Source: Chloroflexota bacterium
GTDB lineage: Bacteria; Chloroflexota; Dormibacteria; Aeolococcales; Aeolococcaceae
Direction of reading: 5' to 3'
NCBI GenBank assembly: GCA_003491925.1
Contig: DNAU01000050.1
Location: forward strand, 1 to 11,798
Length of the DNA: 11,798 nucleotides
Shown: piece by piece, positions 1-11,798 of the stretch
Numbering within the stretch: the stretch's first letter is position 1
Layout of the letters: every line of letters begins with the position of its first letter
Position numbers and translations under genes: made by a program
Notes under the pieces: generated by a model
The model's input: only the letters and a program-made list of their open reading frames with translations
Told to the model about the DNA's origin: nothing
The model's database searches: none

Positions 1-1143
1 CTCCGCCGCGTAGATCTCTTTCCAGCGCGCAAACACGAGGTTGTTGCTGCATTCGGCATCTTCGGTGCCCACGGCAATCAGCTGGCGGCGCTTGGGCGGC
101 AGTTCCTTGAGGACGTCCTCCTTGAGTCGTCTTATCATTATGCTGGTGCGCAGCCTCTGCTGCAGCTCGCTGTGGTTGCTGCTCCCGTTGGCGACCCAGA
201 CCTTCTTCCGCCCCCTCTGCTCCTCGTGGAGGGCGCAGTACCGCCTGGCGAACTCCCACCAGTCTCCGAACCTGGACGGGCACAGGGCGGCCGCCACCGG
301 CCAGATCTCTATCGGGCGGTTCTCCATGGGTGTGCCGGTCAGGAACAGGGCCCGGCGGCAGCTCTCGTAGATCCCTTTTTGAGTCAGGACGACCCGCGTT
401 CGGCGCGCGTCGGGGTTCTTCAGGTACTGGGCCTCGTCGAATATCCCGACGTCCCACTTCTGGCGGAGGCTCTGCGACAGGGGCGTCTCCTCCCACTTCT
501 TGACGTCTTTCCCGCTGTCGTCCTTGACCGTGTGGGACCTCCCGGTCACCTTCTCGTAGTTTGTTATGCAGAACAGGCCGTGGTCGGGGTTCAGCTCGGG
601 TGCCGCGTCGTCGCCTCCGCGAGGGATGAAAATTTGGGGAGGTTCTATGAGCCACTTCCGGGCCTCGGCGACCCAGTTGAGTATCAACGTGGCGGGGCAT
701 ATGATGAGGACGTTCCTGGCTTTGGTGTAGTTCAGGAAGCCGAGTGCTTCGATCGACTTCCCCAGCCCCATCGAGTCAGCGAAGAGCGTGTCCTTCCGCT
801 GGATCGCGTAGGCGATCCCGGCCTTCTGGAAGGGTAGGTAGGAGAGGCCCGCCGGCGCCGGGATGACGATGCTCGAGTCGACGGCGCGGGACGTGGCCAG
901 CTTGGCCAGGTGGTTCCGCATCACCTCCAGGGCGCGCGGGTTGCAGAACCGCTTCAGGCGGGTGGCGTGCTCCACGCGGCCCGAGTAGTACCGGCGACCG
1001 ATTCGGGCGCGGCACGCGCGGCACTTGGTAGGGTTGTCGCACATGGTGGGCTCGTGCAGCTCGAACCCGGCCTTCTTGAGCAGCCTGACGTCGCCAGGCT
1101 CGTGGTCGGCGACGAACACTCCCTTCCAGAAGGTCACGATCAT
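1..1143 (-). CDS. SMARCAL1-like SNF2-family DNA helicase/translocase (3' end beyond window)
   Basis: An ATP-driven double-strand DNA translocase of the SNF2 superfamily 2 type; SMARCAL1-like members reanneal or remodel forked DNA. The 381 visible residues hold motif I (DSMGLGKS, about 122-129), motif Ia (LIICPATLILNW, about 146-157), the DEAQ box (236-239), motif III (LTGTP, 268-272) and the family linker IRRLKEDVLKELPPKRR (337-353). The second RecA-like lobe lies beyond the left edge. The N-terminus carries a Cys cluster (C35, C41, C44, C67) that might bind zinc. The ATG at 1143 overlaps the methyltransferase stop as ATGA, so translation is probably coupled. It likely acts in phage replication or recombination beside the family B polymerase of this window. 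The family is clear from the motifs; substrate and exact role are inferred. Confidence 0.93.
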   Translation of the reverse strand, partial: MIVTFWKGVFVADHEPGDVRLLKKAGFELHEPTMCDNPTKCRACRARIGRRYYSGRVEHATRLKRFCNPRALEVMRNHLAKLATSRAVDSSIVIPAPAGLSYLPFQKAGIAYAIQRKDTLFADSMGLGKSIEALGFLNYTKARNVLIICPATLILNWVAEARKWLIEPPQIFIPRGGDDAAPELNPDHGLFCITNYEKVTGRSHTVKDDSGKDVKKWEETPLSQSLRQKWDVGIFDEAQYLKNPDARRTRVVLTQKGIYESCRRALFLTGTPMENRPIEIWPVAAALCPSRFGDWWEFARRYCALHEEQRGRKKVWVANGSSNHSELQQRLRTSIMIRRLKEDVLKELPPKRRQLIAVGTEDAECSNNLVFARWKEIYAAE

Positions 1144-3323: not shown

Positions 3324-3395
3324 TTTCGTCTTTTTCTCTTTCGATGATCTTGAGAAGTCGTCCTCTCGGACTACTCCCCAAAGTTCTACTTGACC
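3324..3395 (-). repeat. Intergenic repeat, copy 1
   Basis: About 72 bp, close to 90% identical by eye to 4115-4184, with 20 nt (3341-3360) and 14 nt (3369-3382) identical blocks. On the minus strand it starts in the last codons (VK-stop) of the 240-aa gene, fills the gap and ends just before the 399-aa gene ATG. Imperfect arms TTCTC and GAGAA could form a small hairpin. It may be a promoter/leader, an operator or a recombination point between gene modules; no clean -10/-35 pair is seen. Confidence 0.8.
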
Positions 3396-4524: not shown

Positions 4525-5043
4525 ATGGCGAAGCACCACAATTCCGAGAACCAGGCACCGGCCGGCAACTTCGAGCTTCCCGAGGGCTTTGCCCGCTCGG
4601 GCTCGGCCAACGCGGTCGGCTGGTTCGACCACACCACGCTGGGCAACATGGCGAGGGGCAGCCTGGTCGGCATGTTCCGGCGCCCCGATCAGCTCAAGGG
4701 CCCGAAGGGCGAGAGCGACTTCTTCCAGATCGAGCTCGCGGCCCCCTGCAAGGTGCGCGAGGGCAAGGGCGAGGACGCCGAGATCGTCGACGCGAAGGCG
4801 GGCGACGTCATCAACATCAACTACGGCCCGAAGACGAAGGTGTGGAAGGACCTCGTCGCCGACATCCTGCGGGGAGCCGTCTACGAGGTGATCGCCCGGG
4901 TCGAGGGCGACAAGGTCGCCATCAGCGGCGGACGCAAGATGCACAACCTGGGCTGCTACCAGCGCTGCGTGCGCCCGGCCCCGGCTGACAGCGAGGTCGA
5001 CACCGACTTCCCGGGTTCGGCAGAGGAACAGACGCAGGCGTGA
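4525..5043 (+). CDS. Hypothetical protein, possible OB-fold ssDNA-binding protein
   Basis: Not recognised with certainty. 172 aa. A disordered, polar N-terminus (1-30) leads into a beta-rich core (31-150) with GWFDHTTLGNMARGSLVGMF, DFFQIELAAPCKV, GDVININYGP and AVYEVIARVEGDKVAI. It ends in an acidic, flexible tail (DSEVDTDFPGSAEEQTQA, 155-172). Beta core plus acidic tail is the plan of phage single-stranded DNA-binding proteins, and it is the first gene after the rightward promoter, consistent with an abundant early replication protein. This is inference from pattern, not a family match. The ATG at 4525 is well set by AAGGAG 6 nt upstream. Cys75, Cys144 and Cys148 are the only cysteines. Confidence 0.75.
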   Translation: MAKHHNSENQAPAGNFELPEGFARSGSANAVGWFDHTTLGNMARGSLVGMFRRPDQLKGPKGESDFFQIELAAPCKVREGKGEDAEIVDAKAGDVININYGPKTKVWKDLVADILRGAVYEVIARVEGDKVAISGGRKMHNLGCYQRCVRPAPADSEVDTDFPGSAEEQTQA

Positions 5044-5747: not shown

Positions 5748-5765
5748 TTTTTGGAGAGATCTACT

Positions 5766-7262
5766 GTGCTCTTTCGGGGCGGCAGATCATCGGGTTCGCG
5801 TCCCACCGGACCGGGACTGCGAGGCCCCGTGTCGTCGGTGGGCTCCGACGCGGGCGACGACCAGGCTGAGGGGAAGCTGGTGCGCGTGCTGCCCCGCACC
5901 CGGATCTACGAGGCTCGCGCGACGGTCGACGTCCTGGAGACGAGCTCTCCGCCCTCCCTCACCACCAAGATGCGGGCTGCCTTCGGGGACGGCAAGTTCC
6001 ACACGCCCCGCGAGGCAGCCTCGCAGCTCGGCGACGAGATCGACGACTGCGAGCTGGTCGCCGCGATCGGGGAGATCCTGCTCGGCGGCCGCGTGTTCGA
6101 CCGGGCGGGCAACTACCTGCGCATGCGCCCCCGCGGGCCGGGCGAGCCCGTGCAGTCGCTCGCCGACCTGGTAGACGGACTCGACATGTCGGCGGTGCCC
6201 AGGACGGAGCCAGCGGTGTTGGAGTCCGGCGCGGACTTCAACCCGGAGACGGACGCGGCGGGAGCGGGACCTGTGGTGACCACCGGCGCTCCGCCTGCAG
6301 GGCTGGTGCTGTCCGACCCTCCCGACGAGCTCACGCTGCCCACCTCGATGGTGGCCAGCATGATGAGCGCGATCCTGGCCAAGCGGGGCTCTGGTAAGAC
6401 GTACCTCGGGATGGTGCTGTGCGAGGAGCTCATGGCGACCCCCGACCCTCCCGTGCCCGTGGTGTTCGACCCGACCGGGGCCTGGTGGGGGCTCTGCGCC
6501 AGGTCCGACGGCTCGCCTTCGGAGGGTCTGCGACCCGAACGCGAGATCCTGCTCCTGGGGGGACCGAAGGGCCACCTGCCCCTCTCGGCCAGGCACGGGG
6601 CCAAGCTCGCCGAGCTCGCGATGCAGCTCGCGGTCGTCCCGGTGGTCGTGGACCTGTCCGAGATGGCGCCCGCCGAGCAGCACCGGGTGTGCGCCGACTT
6701 CTGCGAGCGCCTGCTCGCGATGCCCAAGGCCGAGCGCCGGGCCGCACACGTGGTGTTCGACGAGGCGGACGAGTTCGCGCCGCAGCGGTTCGGCGGGGTG
6801 GGAGGCGAGCAGCGCCGGTCGCTCGGGCTCGTGGAGCGCCTCGTGATGCGCGGCCGCTCGCGCGGAATCGGGGCGACCCTGATCACGTTGCGCCCCGCGG
6901 TGCTCTCCAAGAACGTCCTCTCCCAGGTGGACGCGCTCTACCTCTTGCGCATGGTCGAGCCGAACGACCTGCACGCGGTCAAGGAGTGGCTCGCGGGGTT
7001 CGAGCGGAACATCAGCGCCGACCAGCGGTCGCGCTGCCTGGGGTACCTACCCGTGCTCCCGGTCGGCACGGGCTACTTCCTGCGCGGGGGAGAGCAGGTG
7101 ATGTTCAGGCGGTTCCACGTGCGGCGCAAGCGCTCGTACGACTCGTCACGCACTCCGGACGGCCTCACGCGTGATGCTCCGGTCTTGCGCGCACCGTCGG
7201 CCGCCGTCCTCGCCCGGGCGACCAGGATCCTGTCAGACGGGCCCGCCCAGGAGGGAGGCTGA
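5766..7262 (+). CDS. HerA/FtsK-like DNA-translocating ATPase with N-terminal winged helix
   Basis: A hexameric P-loop motor of the HerA/FtsK type that pumps double-stranded DNA. Visible: Walker A AKRGSGKT (205-212), VVFDPTG (232-238), Walker B VVFDEADEFAP (329-339) and an arginine-finger-like stretch MRGRSRGIGA (361-370) followed by TLITLRPAVLSKNVLSQVDA, the usual HerA sensor region. Residues 66-118 look like a winged helix-turn-helix, perhaps for DNA or partner recognition; 120-185 are a Pro/Ala-rich linker. The GTG at 5766 is chosen because GGAGAG lies 7 nt upstream; an in-frame TTG at 5751 would overlap that ribosome site. In viruses such ATPases can package genomes; in cells they serve end resection with NurA. 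No NurA nuclease or terminase is visible. The stop overlaps the next ATG by 1 nt. Confidence 0.88.
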   Translation: MLFRGGRSSGSRPTGPGLRGPVSSVGSDAGDDQAEGKLVRVLPRTRIYEARATVDVLETSSPPSLTTKMRAAFGDGKFHTPREAASQLGDEIDDCELVAAIGEILLGGRVFDRAGNYLRMRPRGPGEPVQSLADLVDGLDMSAVPRTEPAVLESGADFNPETDAAGAGPVVTTGAPPAGLVLSDPPDELTLPTSMVASMMSAILAKRGSGKTYLGMVLCEELMATPDPPVPVVFDPTGAWWGLCARSDGSPSEGLRPEREILLLGGPKGHLPLSARHGAKLAELAMQLAVVPVVVDLSEMAPAEQHRVCADFCERLLAMPKAERRAAHVVFDEADEFAPQRFGGVGGEQRRSLGLVERLVMRGRSRGIGATLITLRPAVLSKNVLSQVDALYLLRMVEPNDLHAVKEWLAGFERNISADQRSRCLGYLPVLPVGTGYFLRGGEQVMFRRFHVRRKRSYDSSRTPDGLTRDAPVLRAPSAAVLARATRILSDGPAQEGG

Positions 7263-8404
7263 TGGCTCGCAGCGATAAAGAGGTGAGGCGGCGCCTGCCC
7301 CCGCGCGACGAGCAAGGGAGGTTCCGCAAGCGCCGGACGCTCCCGCGGGACGAGCAGGGGAGGTTCCGCGCGCGCAAGACGCGCAGGAGGCCCGAGGAGC
7401 CCTCCAGGAAGCCGGTCAGGAAGCCCGCCCGGCCTCCCGCCAAGCCCGCGCGCAGGCTCCCGGCCGAGCCTGCCAAGAAGCCGGCCCGCAGGCCCCCGGT
7501 CAAGCCCGCCAAGCCCGCCAAGCCTGCCAAACCTGCCAAGAAGCCCGTCCGCAGGCCCCCGGCGAAGCCTCCCAAGAAGCCGGTCCGCAGGCCACCTGCC
7601 AAGCCTCCTGAGAAGCCCGTCCGAAGGCGTCCGGCTAGACCTCCAGTCAAGCCTGTTCGCAAGCCCCCGGCCAAGCCTCCGAAGAAGCCGGTCCGCAGAC
7701 CTCCGGTCAAGCCTCCCGTCAAGCCTCCCGTCAAGCCTCCGGTCAAGCCACCGAAGAAGCTGCCGAAGAAGCCCCCCAAGCGGCGCAAGAAGCCGGCGGC
7801 TCCCCCGGAGGCGGCGCCTCCGGTCGCTCCCGTCCTGCCCCCCGTCGGCGAGCGGGCGCGGGACGCGGAGGCGGCGATGCAGGAGCGCCTCCTCGCGCTG
7901 ATGCAGGACATAGCTCGCCTGCAGTCCGGGCTCGACATGGCGATCAACACCTGCATCAACCTCGACGGCACCGTCGACGGTGAGCTGACCATACGCAACC
8001 TGCCGGAGGAGTGGCGCTCGCTCGAGGGGGTGCGGTGGCTCGTGGCGACCTTGTCGTCCGCGCTGCGGGCCTTCGACCCGTTCCCGATCCCCTCGCGGTG
8101 CCCCATGGGCGGCAGCTTCTGGTGCTCGTTCGGTATCCGCTTCGGGCCGCAGAACGAGGCCGAGATCGGCGAGCTGGCCGATCTCTACAAGAGGCACAGA
8201 GGACTATTCCAAATTGGAACATATCCGACGCAGGCGTGGGGCACCGGGGCGATGCAGATCGCGCTGACGGGAGACAGGGTCGGCATGCTGGCCATGCTGA
8301 CCTCGCTGCTCGAGAAGCGGGGGCTGCCACCGTCGGTCGTCATGATCCGCTTCATCTGGACCCCGGACGGGTCGCGGCCCGGTCACTACAAGGGGGAGAA
8401 GTGA
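7262..8404 (+). CDS. Histone-H1-like Lys/Pro/Arg-rich protein with C-terminal globular domain
   Basis: 380 aa in three parts. Residues 14-36 contain PRDEQGRFR twice at a 14-residue spacing. Residues 45-178 are an almost pure Lys/Pro/Arg/Ala/Val tract built on a 12-residue unit KKPVRRPPAKPP plus four VKPP units, similar in make-up to the C-terminal tail of histone H1 and bacterial H1-like proteins that condense DNA. Residues 196-380 are an ordinary folded domain (helix AEAAMQERLLALMQDIARLQ, then EEWRSLEGVRWL, beta-rich SFWCSFGIRFGP and a C-terminal VVMIRFIWTPDG) that I do not recognise. DNA compaction inside the virion or during replication is inferred from composition. GAGGGAGG at 7251-7258 supports the ATG, which overlaps the ATPase stop (TGATG), so the two are translationally coupled. 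Confidence 0.85.
   Translation: MARSDKEVRRRLPPRDEQGRFRKRRTLPRDEQGRFRARKTRRRPEEPSRKPVRKPARPPAKPARRLPAEPAKKPARRPPVKPAKPAKPAKPAKKPVRRPPAKPPKKPVRRPPAKPPEKPVRRRPARPPVKPVRKPPAKPPKKPVRRPPVKPPVKPPVKPPVKPPKKLPKKPPKRRKKPAAPPEAAPPVAPVLPPVGERARDAEAAMQERLLALMQDIARLQSGLDMAINTCINLDGTVDGELTIRNLPEEWRSLEGVRWLVATLSSALRAFDPFPIPSRCPMGGSFWCSFGIRFGPQNEAEIGELADLYKRHRGLFQIGTYPTQAWGTGAMQIALTGDRVGMLAMLTSLLEKRGLPPSVVMIRFIWTPDGSRPGHYKGEK
7385..7795 (+). repeat. Coding tandem repeats (36-bp and 12-bp periods)
   Basis: DNA behind the Lys/Pro-rich tract. A 36-bp unit (KKPVRRPPAKPP) recurs from 7538, and a 12-bp unit GTCAAGCCTCCC is repeated four times at 7706-7753 with few changes, the last in CCACCG form. The near identity of the short units points to recent expansion by slippage, so tract length probably varies between relatives. 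Confidence 0.85.
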
Positions 8405-9608: not shown

Positions 9609-9751
9609 TGTCTCCTTGGCAGAGGCTCGAGTGCCTGGTCGCGGGGGTGGGAGGGATAGTGCTGGTGGTCTGCGGCATCATCAGCCTCGTTCGTCGTGAG
9701 TATCAGCGTCCGAGAGGAAAGAACCGGCGGTGGCCGTCTTCAACCCCATAA
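9608..9751 (+). CDS. Small single-span membrane protein (47 aa)
   Basis: 47 aa, too short to be obvious. One hydrophobic span, CLVAGVGGIVLVVCGIISLV (about 9-28), is followed by a very basic tail (RREYQRPRGKNRRW). This arrangement puts the tail in the cytoplasm. The ATG at 9608 overlaps the preceding TGA (TGATG), and its end overlaps the polymerase start by 22 nt, which argues for a real coupled gene. Holin-like, anchor or replication-membrane roles are all possible. Confidence 0.6.
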   Translation: MSPWQRLECLVAGVGGIVLVVCGIISLVRREYQRPRGKNRRWPSSTP

Positions 9752-11798
9752 AGTCGACCCGCAAGCTGCGGCGGTTCGGCGTGCTCGACCTCGAGTGGGT
9801 CCCGGGCGAGACCCTGCCCACGCTCGTCAACACCCTGGTCAAGGTCGAGGGGATAAGGACCCCCGTCAAGATCCCCCTGCCGGTCTCGAAGCGCATGACG
9901 AGCGCGCTGAAATTGCGCTTGGCCGGGTACTACGACCAGCAGGCGAGGGGCAGCGACGACGAGGACGAGGTAGTGATGGAGGAGTGCTACCGGAGGTTCA
10001 ACTCGATACGCGAGCAGGTCGACTTCCTGCTCACGCGCGAGCGGCGAGGCGACTGGTTTTTCGCCCACGCCGGGGGACTGGCCGACATGCAGTTCGTCCT
10101 CGACGAGCTCCTGAGCGAGATCAAGGAGCAGCTGCGCTCGGGAGGCACCCGCTCTAGCACGTCTTACGCACCGGACGGCTCGAAGACGAGCGAGGAGGAG
10201 AGCGGGGTGACTGCCGGAGGCAGGTGCTGGAAGATCAAGGCCTCCTTCAGCGGCAGCTCGGCCATCATCGTCCACGTGATCAACGGCAAGAACGCCTGGC
10301 ACTTCGTCGACTCCTACTGGCTCCTGCGCGACTCCCTGGCCAACATCGGCAAGGCGATCGGTTTGAAAAAGGGCGACGACCCGCGCGCCCTCGCCTGGAT
10401 GACCGAGAGGTTCGGCAGGCCCATCAAGGACTTCGAGGAGCTCTCGCCGGACGAGAGGAAGGTTTTTTATCGCGACGTCCCCATCGAGATCCTGGAGCTG
10501 TACAACAAGCTCGACTGCGAGATCCTGTGGAAGGCGATATCCCAGTTCGAGACGGAGATCGTGAGCCTCGGGGGCCAGCTCCAGCAGACGATAGCCTCGA
10601 CCGCCATGACCCTCTTCCGCCGGACTTTCCTCCAGCGCGACATCTTCACCTCCGAGTCGCTCAACCAGATCAGCCAGGAGGCCTACTTCGCGAGCCGGGT
10701 CGAGGTGTTCAACCGCAACCCTCCCGACGACTTCCTGATCTACGACATCAACTCGAGCTTCCCCTACGCGATGACCTTCCCCCTGCCGGGCAACCTCGTC
10801 GAGTACCGCCTCACCCTGCCGTCCGACGAGTCCGACGACTGCATCTACCTGGCAGACGCGACGGTCGAGGTCCCCGACATGTACCTGCCTCCCCTCCCCT
10901 ACCGCAAGGACAACCGGGTGTTCTTCCCCGTGGGCAAGTGGCGCAGCTGGTTCACGTCGACCGACATCCGCCTCGCCCTGCGCGAGGGTGCCGTGCTCCA
11001 CAAGGTCCACCAGGTCTACGTCTTCGAGTCGTTCCGCGACTTCAAGAGCTACGCCGACAAGATCTACGAGCTGAGGCGGGTAGCTACCACCGACTTCCGC
11101 AAGCTCGTGCTCAAGTACCTGCTCAACAGCCTCTACGGGAAGTGCTCGGAGTCGACGCACAAGCAGGAGATGCTCATCAACCCCGACAAGATCGACCGGG
11201 AGACGATGCAGATGCTCCAGCCCGGCGTGTGGCTGGCGGAGAAGGAAGCAAAAATTTCACATCGACATGTGATCATAGCCGCCGTGATCACCGCCATCGC
11301 GCGCCGGACGCTCTACGACCTGGCCAAGGAGTGCATGCGCCAGGAGAAGCCCCCCTTCTACAGCGACAGCGTCACGGGCGACCGGACGGTGGTACTGCGC
11401 TCTCCCGAGGGGAGGATAGTCGTCGACCCGATCGAGATGGTGTGGGCCAAGCGGGGCAGGGACGTCAGCTCGTACCGCGGAGAGAAGGAGACCTGCGTAC
11501 TGGGGGAGGGGTGGACGGCGCTGGCGAAGGACGGCGGTGGGAGGGAGGGGTGGTTCCCCCTGAAGAGGATCATCCGGCACAAGACTCGTAAGACGGCTTA
11601 CCTGATAAGCTCCAAGAAGGGGCAGGTACATGTGACGGCGGACCACTCGCTGGTGGTAGGCGGCAGGGAGGTCAAGCCGGTTGACTTCATCGAGCGAGAG
11701 ATGGAGTTCGAGACGGTGGCTGCACCTCCGCCGGTACCGGCCGAGGAGATCGACGTCCTGGAGCACGTGAAGGGTTTCGAGAGGACGATACACACCAC
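9730..11798 (+). CDS. Family B DNA polymerase with intein in motif C (3' end beyond window)
   Basis: Replicative DNA polymerase of the viral/organellar B type (DNA_pol_B_2-like). The exonuclease part has Exo I DLE (20-22), Exo II AHAGGLADMQF (112-122, Asp119; the usual Asn is Ala114) and Exo III YNKLD (258-262). The polymerase part has motif A DINSSFPYAM (339-348, Asp339) and motif B KLVLKYLLNSLYGK (458-471). Motif C begins with FYSD (543-546) and is then broken by an intein (Ser547 on), so the second catalytic Asp must lie in the C-extein beyond the window. GTG at 9730 is the only sensible start after an in-frame stop at 9697-9699; AGAGG lies 12 nt upstream. Whether it is protein-primed cannot be told without the C-terminal half and a terminal protein gene. 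It overlaps the membrane protein gene by 22 nt. Confidence 0.93.
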   Translation, partial: MAVFNPIKSTRKLRRFGVLDLEWVPGETLPTLVNTLVKVEGIRTPVKIPLPVSKRMTSALKLRLAGYYDQQARGSDDEDEVVMEECYRRFNSIREQVDFLLTRERRGDWFFAHAGGLADMQFVLDELLSEIKEQLRSGGTRSSTSYAPDGSKTSEEESGVTAGGRCWKIKASFSGSSAIIVHVINGKNAWHFVDSYWLLRDSLANIGKAIGLKKGDDPRALAWMTERFGRPIKDFEELSPDERKVFYRDVPIEILELYNKLDCEILWKAISQFETEIVSLGGQLQQTIASTAMTLFRRTFLQRDIFTSESLNQISQEAYFASRVEVFNRNPPDDFLIYDINSSFPYAMTFPLPGNLVEYRLTLPSDESDDCIYLADATVEVPDMYLPPLPYRKDNRVFFPVGKWRSWFTSTDIRLALREGAVLHKVHQVYVFESFRDFKSYADKIYELRRVATTDFRKLVLKYLLNSLYGKCSESTHKQEMLINPDKIDRETMQMLQPGVWLAEKEAKISHRHVIIAAVITAIARRTLYDLAKECMRQEKPPFYSDSVTGDRTVVLRSPEGRIVVDPIEMVWAKRGRDVSSYRGEKETCVLGEGWTALAKDGGGREGWFPLKRIIRHKTRKTAYLISSKKGQVHVTADHSLVVGGREVKPVDFIEREMEFETVAAPPPVPAEEIDVLEHVKGFERTIHT
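11368..11798 (+). other. Intein N-terminal splicing domain (pol-c site, Ser1), runs off window
   Basis: After Y-S-D of polymerase motif C the sequence switches to SVTGDRTVVLR (Ser547 = intein residue 1, block A), followed by EGRIVVDPIEMVW and, 90 residues in, QVHVTADHSLVV with the TxxH motif (Thr636, His639, block B). These are the hallmarks of the Hint/intein fold. The site Y-x-D / T-D-S equals the pol-c insertion of archaeal B polymerases, so the C-extein should begin T-D-S. The endonuclease region, if any, and the C-terminal His-Asn lie outside. Without splicing the polymerase would lack its catalytic metal site. Confidence 0.9.

Follow-up and report, generated by a model that had tools for sequence, protein, structure and literature searches.

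The window, that is, the whole stretch of DNA that was analysed, is an entire contig (G000:C363) of 11,798 bp. Its right-hand part is taken up by a family B DNA polymerase frame (9730-11796, plus strand), which runs without a stop to the contig end, encodes the first 689 residues of the protein and matches the Pfam profile PF03175 with E=9e-30. Within motif C of this polymerase the codons for FYSD (11356-11367) are followed, from 11368, by SVTGDRTVVLR and later by VTADHSLVV, in which the block-B Thr lies at 11635 and the His at 11644. The main features are the following.

1..1143, minus strand: SNF2-type helicase, cut by the contig end, syntenic in the phage records (PF00176, E=1.5e-28; P-loop without an intein)
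4525..5043, plus strand: small syntenic protein (44% and 35% identity to the phage records; no Pfam or PHROG match)
5751..7262, plus strand: HerA/FtsK-like ATPase (matches phrog_2666, 'terminase large subunit', with E=5e-11; syntenic in both G110 and G111, at 36% identity)
7262..8404, plus strand: Lys/Pro/Arg-rich protein with a repetitive N-terminal part (39% identity to G110 and G111; no Pfam or PHROG match)
9730..11367, plus strand: 546-aa N-extein of the DNA polymerase; it contains the exonuclease motifs, DINSSFP (motif A), LNSLYGK (motif B) and, in FYSD, the first of the motif C Asp residues
11368..11796, plus strand: N-terminal 143 residues of a 397-aa Ser1 intein (identical to residues 547-689 of the protein P0001; PF14890 and TIGR01443 match the full intein)
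11368..11370, plus strand: Ser1, predicted nucleophile of the N-terminal splice junction (Ser in 29/29 inteins)
11488..11490, plus strand: Glu41 (29/29), by our own assignment the putative equivalent of the Glu described in passages of PMC10189870 as contacting the NX motif
11575..11580, plus strand: Arg70-His71, putative NX motif of Ser1 inteins with Ser/Thr at +1 (29/29)
11635..11646, plus strand: block B / N3 motif T-A-D-H (Thr90 and His93 in 29/29)

The element and its host

When 12 proteins of the window were compared by tblastn with two IMG/VR records, G110 (194 kb) and G111 (38 kb), seven matched both, with order and orientation kept: the SNF2 helicase, the proteins at 4525, 5085 and 5400, the HerA-like ATPase, the Lys/Pro-rich protein and the polymerase. 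The protein at 2120 has scattered matches in G110 alone; neither record was matched by the methylase or by any of the proteins at 3386, 4175 and 8694. Of these two records, G110 has a gene for a virion structural protein (phrog_1645, E=3e-93), while G111 has one for a CHAP endolysin, and since the window is syntenic with records carrying such genes, the element is very probably a soil phage of bacteria. The first-pass annotation had called the polymerase viral; this stands by way of the relatives, although no virion gene was recognised among the window proteins themselves.

As for the host, the TypA protein of the bin is 90% identical to P0141, whose source is named Candidatus Dormibacteria bacterium; neither SSU rRNA (RF00177) nor RNA polymerase (PF00562) was matched in the 71%-complete bin. 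The bin likewise gave no match to the virion protein of G110, an outcome that carries no weight either way. An archaeal host is unsupported, given the Dormibacteria-like TypA of the bin and the CHAP endolysin of the relative G111. Two points of the first-pass annotation are to be corrected here: the polymerase belongs to the phi29-like PF03175 type rather than to that of archaeal cells, and the bin is that of a bacterium. We likewise rejected a resident gene of the host class, as matches were found in only two of 110 genomes of that class, namely the window's own and one with a distant polymerase (G025). With two genomes matched, the link to the host is given solely by binning, and any such source label (that of P0141, that of the bin, or that of P0033, a relative with an empty site named after a Conexivisphaerales archaeon) may be a binning error.

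The relatives have features of their own. In G110, a CRISPR-like array of ~29 repeats, mostly 70-74 bp apart, adjoins a 634-aa Cas12f/Cas12u1-like protein (PADLOC, E=4e-76; L026:7477-10073 and L026:10083-11987, minus strand). The same record encodes a phrog_850 RNA-binding protein at L026:13857-15536 (E=2e-79). The SNF2 helicase of G111 (L008:201-3011, minus strand) contains a putative intein with LAGLIDADG_3 between GLGK and T, which the helicase of the window lacks. The first residue of this putative intein is not Cys, Ser or Thr and there is a Cys in block F, features that we take to resemble those of class 3 inteins.

The complete intein, its splice residues and its endonuclease

From the letters of the window the first-pass annotation had proposed a Ser1-type intein at the pol-c position in motif C of a family B polymerase, had placed it at 11341..11798 and had expected His-Asn followed by T-D-S to the right of the window. 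Both the type of the insert and its position are borne out by P0001, a 1113-aa protein found by protein search (a cluster of 26 sequences, seen on 11 contigs). It is identical to all 689 residues of the window frame and contains the insert in full; the C-terminal end of the insert is YVYDLEVEGAHTFVDGLGRVLLHN, followed by TDSLSTKADL. The frame continues to HN|TDS as anticipated, with neither an early stop nor a missing C-extein, and the site itself reads YSD|TDS. The coordinates are the one detail that needed correction: an insert is present, but it starts at 11368, and 11341-11367 still encode polymerase. The C-terminal half lies in the window's bin as well, since residues 791-1113 of P0001 are 100% identical to the translation of another contig, G000:C225:1-969, and 101 residues of P0001 are absent from both bin contigs (C363 and C225). 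Because C225 opens mid-frame at base 1, this gap is an assembly break. In other words, the window covers 143 of the 397 intein residues, the remainder being known from P0001 and C225, and as these continue the frame, the contig merely ends inside the intein.

The sequence hallmarks of class 1 inteins (Ser/Cys1, TxxH, His-Asn and the +1 residue) were found in 29/29 intein-bearing relatives, P0001 included, and the predicted structure shows the HINT/intein fold. In the alignment, Ser1, Glu41, Arg70-His71, Thr90, His93, Asp377, His396 and Asn397 are invariant in all 29 inteins; Thr at +1 is present in 26 rows among those listed, the column being T944 in the 25 full-length rows. The NX motif, described in passages of PMC10189870 as a His after Arg/Lys with a preceding Glu in Ser1 inteins having Ser/Thr at +1, would be fitted by Arg70-His71 together with Glu41, as far as those passages define it. 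PF14890 (Intein_splicing) was matched in four of four scanned inteins, that of P0001 scoring 29.3 bits, under the curated cut-off of 35.8. The predicted structure has fold matches to phi29 DNA polymerase, the Aes123 PolB1 intein, the TliVMA intein and I-DmoI; confidence in the model is moderate (mean pLDDT 71, pTM 0.51), with the junction residues 544-546 and 942-947 below 50. The phi29-like assignment of the polymerase is thus backed by both profile and fold matches. Nonetheless, phi29 DNA polymerase has a 571-aa solved chain as compared with a 716-aa extein here, at 17% identity; the record of the relative is 194 kb, and the likeness to phi29 is known from the polymerase sequence and the predicted fold.

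In the predicted fold an endonuclease domain sits between the two splicing halves. The 25 full-length inteins (385-400 aa) all have two aligned LAGLIDADG motifs with an acid in each (25/25), and PF14528 (LAGLIDADG_3) was matched in two of four scanned inteins. Four mini-inteins (282-286 aa) have neither LAGLIDADG acid (4/4), yet keep all splice residues. Without the endonuclease acids, their own spread cannot be self-driven homing.

The presence of the two halves on two contigs of the bin might also be read as a split intein, with an N-half ending just past the contig end and a C-half encoded elsewhere for trans-splicing; the best sequence match of the N-half, insignificant at E=0.35, is indeed Aes123 PolB1, which is a good fold match too. 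However, P0001 is one continuous frame rather than two separate genes and its cluster was seen on 11 contigs, the start of C225 mid-frame points to an assembly break, and the endonuclease domain lies between the splicing halves. We therefore rejected the split intein as extremely improbable. It is hardly more credible that the polymerase is dead and the insert in it decayed, or that the copy is that of a defective provirus. Four relatives' inteins do lack the endonuclease acids, and the bin assignment is possibly wrong, but there are no internal stops in either the window frame or the C225 part, the splice residues are intact in 29/29, and the catalytic columns of the polymerase domain are invariant over 33 aligned rows, 25 of them with intein. 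In the same 33-row alignment Asp20 and Glu22 of Exo I are conserved in at least 90% of rows. The invariant catalytic columns fit ongoing selection on the spliced enzyme.

Taken together, the sequences argue with high confidence for a class 1 intein of the Ser1 type, in frame and equipped with a LAGLIDADG endonuclease, at pol-c (Y-S-D|T-D-S) of a phi29-like PF03175 phage polymerase. In the mechanism we propose, the 1113-aa precursor would be translated whole; Ser1, aided by the NX motif and the block-B His, would attack the preceding Asp-Ser bond, Thr+1 would take over the ester and Asn397 would cyclise. The exteins would be joined as Y-S-D-T-D-S, uniting the two metal-binding Asp. The freed endonuclease would then cut the intein-free polymerase gene of a co-infecting relative at pol-c, and repair would copy the intein in. 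Since the two Asp of motif C are parted in the precursor by 397 residues plus Thr, polymerase activity without splicing is unlikely, given the known role of these residues.

Distribution and history of the intein

To describe the distribution we used the 120 best-scoring of 687 related proteins found (7995 candidates were scored). Among these best 120, 29 have the intein (25 full-length, four mini), 90 have an empty site, that is, an exact uninterrupted YxDTD[S/C] motif C, and one (P0019) is truncated within the insert. The inserts start with Ser in 29 rows, all at the same YxD|TDS site. Because the query contained part of the intein, 29/120 is no unbiased frequency. P0019 was left out of the trees, so that the extein tree (a quick tree, LG+G4) has 119 rows. 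On this tree, presence and absence of the intein require 22 changes, at least 20 of them forced by starred branches; shuffled labels require a mean of 26.1 changes, with 11 of 500 shuffles reaching a value as low as the observed one. In other words, the intein is distributed almost at random over the polymerase tree. P0003, the closest relative of P0001, is without intein, the two exteins agreeing at 498/546 and 166/170 residues. P0026, with a mini-intein, and P0094, with an empty site, have identical exteins over 712 residues. Losses, or near-identical phages mixed in assemblies, may account for some of the 22 changes. As an observation in its own right, the 286-aa mini-intein of P0026 is without endonuclease acids, so the gain or loss that separates it from P0094 is unexplained by self-driven homing.

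The histories of inteins and exteins are in conflict. With trees under LG+G4, AU tests on the 25 full-length rows reject the topology of the exteins for the intein data with p=1.3e-7 and the reverse with p=2.5e-38; for all 29 rows congruence is rejected with p=2.3e-10 and 5.6e-50. The P0001 intein is nearest to that of P0016 (74% identity; exteins 69%), and this pairing has support of 100/99 in the intein tree but is rejected by the extein data (p=1e-82), whereas the pairing of the extein neighbours P0001 and P0002 is rejected on inteins (p=0.00035). P0016 and P0021 have exteins that are 93% identical and inteins that are only 51% identical over shared columns. Overall, intein and extein identities are weakly correlated (Spearman 0.23, 406 pairs).

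These conflicts bear on whether an old intein could have been inherited vertically and lost many times instead of homing repeatedly. In favour of such inheritance, the inteins of PF03175 polymerases form one clade (97/97), and several shallow clades, e.g. P0060/P0065/P0069 and P0004/P0006, are concordant in both trees, so that the history is partly vertical. However, a single old intein with many losses predicts agreeing trees, and the rejected congruence of the full-length rows, the opposite verdicts on the two pairings of P0001 and the divergence of the P0016 and P0021 inteins therefore speak for gain by transfer, not loss alone. We consider vertical inheritance quite unlikely as a full account. 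It is likely, judging from the trees, that the intein moves between these phages by homing, as had been suggested from the window. The G+C content is alike in the intein (64%) and the extein (63%) of the window, so composition shows no sign of recent arrival.

Related inteins and possible role

Inteins of other polymerases occur at the same site. A scan of viral contigs identified PF00136-type PolBs with an intein at YGD|TDS on the IMG/VR contigs L034 (76.9 kb) and L035 (61.8 kb). These inteins, of 402 and 384 aa, are 43% and 41% identical to the full P0001 intein, although their hosts belong to another polymerase subfamily, and BLASTP of their exteins against that of P0001 gave nothing better than E=0.3. 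It was in the tree including these two that the PF03175 inteins formed their single clade, which makes jumps between subfamilies look old or rare; for the two PF00136 inteins as one clade p-AU was 0.137. The intein profile gave nine matches, and the seven that were fetched (all except P0123 and P0125) have the intein at the YxD|TDS site. The best match among solved chains is PI-PkoII (E=1e-7), which is presumably located at a different PolB site. NCBIfam matches of the intein are to models of intein-bearing RNA polymerase A'' and gyrase.

Matches elsewhere were few. At E<=1e-5 the full intein matched nothing in the phage collection; a longer polymerase query matched the gut phage record H11 in the intein part (E=1e-6), and the other 10 of 11 phage records are distant polymerases (~25-29% identity), the best being that of Methanosarcina spherical virus. 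The sole match in the scan of genome contigs was a partial distant polymerase in a Phycisphaerae MAG, and the plasmid search returned three distant Bacillus polymerases.

The pol-c allele is described in passages of PMC549080 for archaeal PolB and for Mimivirus PolB (YGD|TDS), the best match of the Mimivirus intein being the Thermococcus Pol-2 intein. Going by the site given there, those inteins and ours are inserted at the same point, which parts the two Asp of motif C, but the host polymerase here is of the phi29-like PF03175 type from a bacterial phage. Aes123 PolB1 (9hth) and PolB16_OarG (8cpn, 8cpo) are short split inteins, their solved chains having 173 and 157-159 aa, whereas this one is contiguous and has an endonuclease domain. 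Homing by gene conversion was demonstrated in vivo for the polB intein of Haloferax volcanii, according to parts of PMC3024317; that intein is likewise endonuclease-bearing and in a family B polymerase, but there the gene is archaeal and cellular and the activity measured. Sections of other papers describe T4-like phages whose PolBs have cysteine-less split inteins (PMC12707363), crAss-like phages with group I introns in PolB and with inteins in TerL (PMC7886860), and gut jumbo phages in which endonuclease sequences split the polymerase genes (PMC12363816). A search limited to open-licence PMC papers returned no paper on inteins of this phage group. Pol-c inteins themselves are already known from archaea and Mimivirus, and what is new is the phi29-like phage host group and the very patchy distribution.

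The intein might, though we regard this as rather doubtful, serve as a weapon between phages, its endonuclease cutting the codons of a catalytic motif in intein-free competitors during co-infection. The cut site would then be hard to mutate, and intein-bearing and intein-free phages could, just as tentatively, keep replacing each other. If true, this would explain both the near-random presence of the intein and the coexistence of near-identical phages with and without it. Among exteins that differ by as little as zero to a few percent, the full-length, the endonuclease-less and the empty state all occur and form a natural series of the homing cycle (invasion, decay and loss), and in pairs like P0026 and P0094 the gain, loss and fitness cost of the intein are directly testable. 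As candidate Ser1 inteins, both the full-length and the mini forms may be of use in protein engineering as well.

Finally, a protein of a human-gut phage (MT835482.1, L010:4365-6563), which we read as tRNA-guanine-transglycosylase-like, seemingly contains a Ser1 intein ending in HN|TT, and its N-half matches the intein part of the window at 33%.
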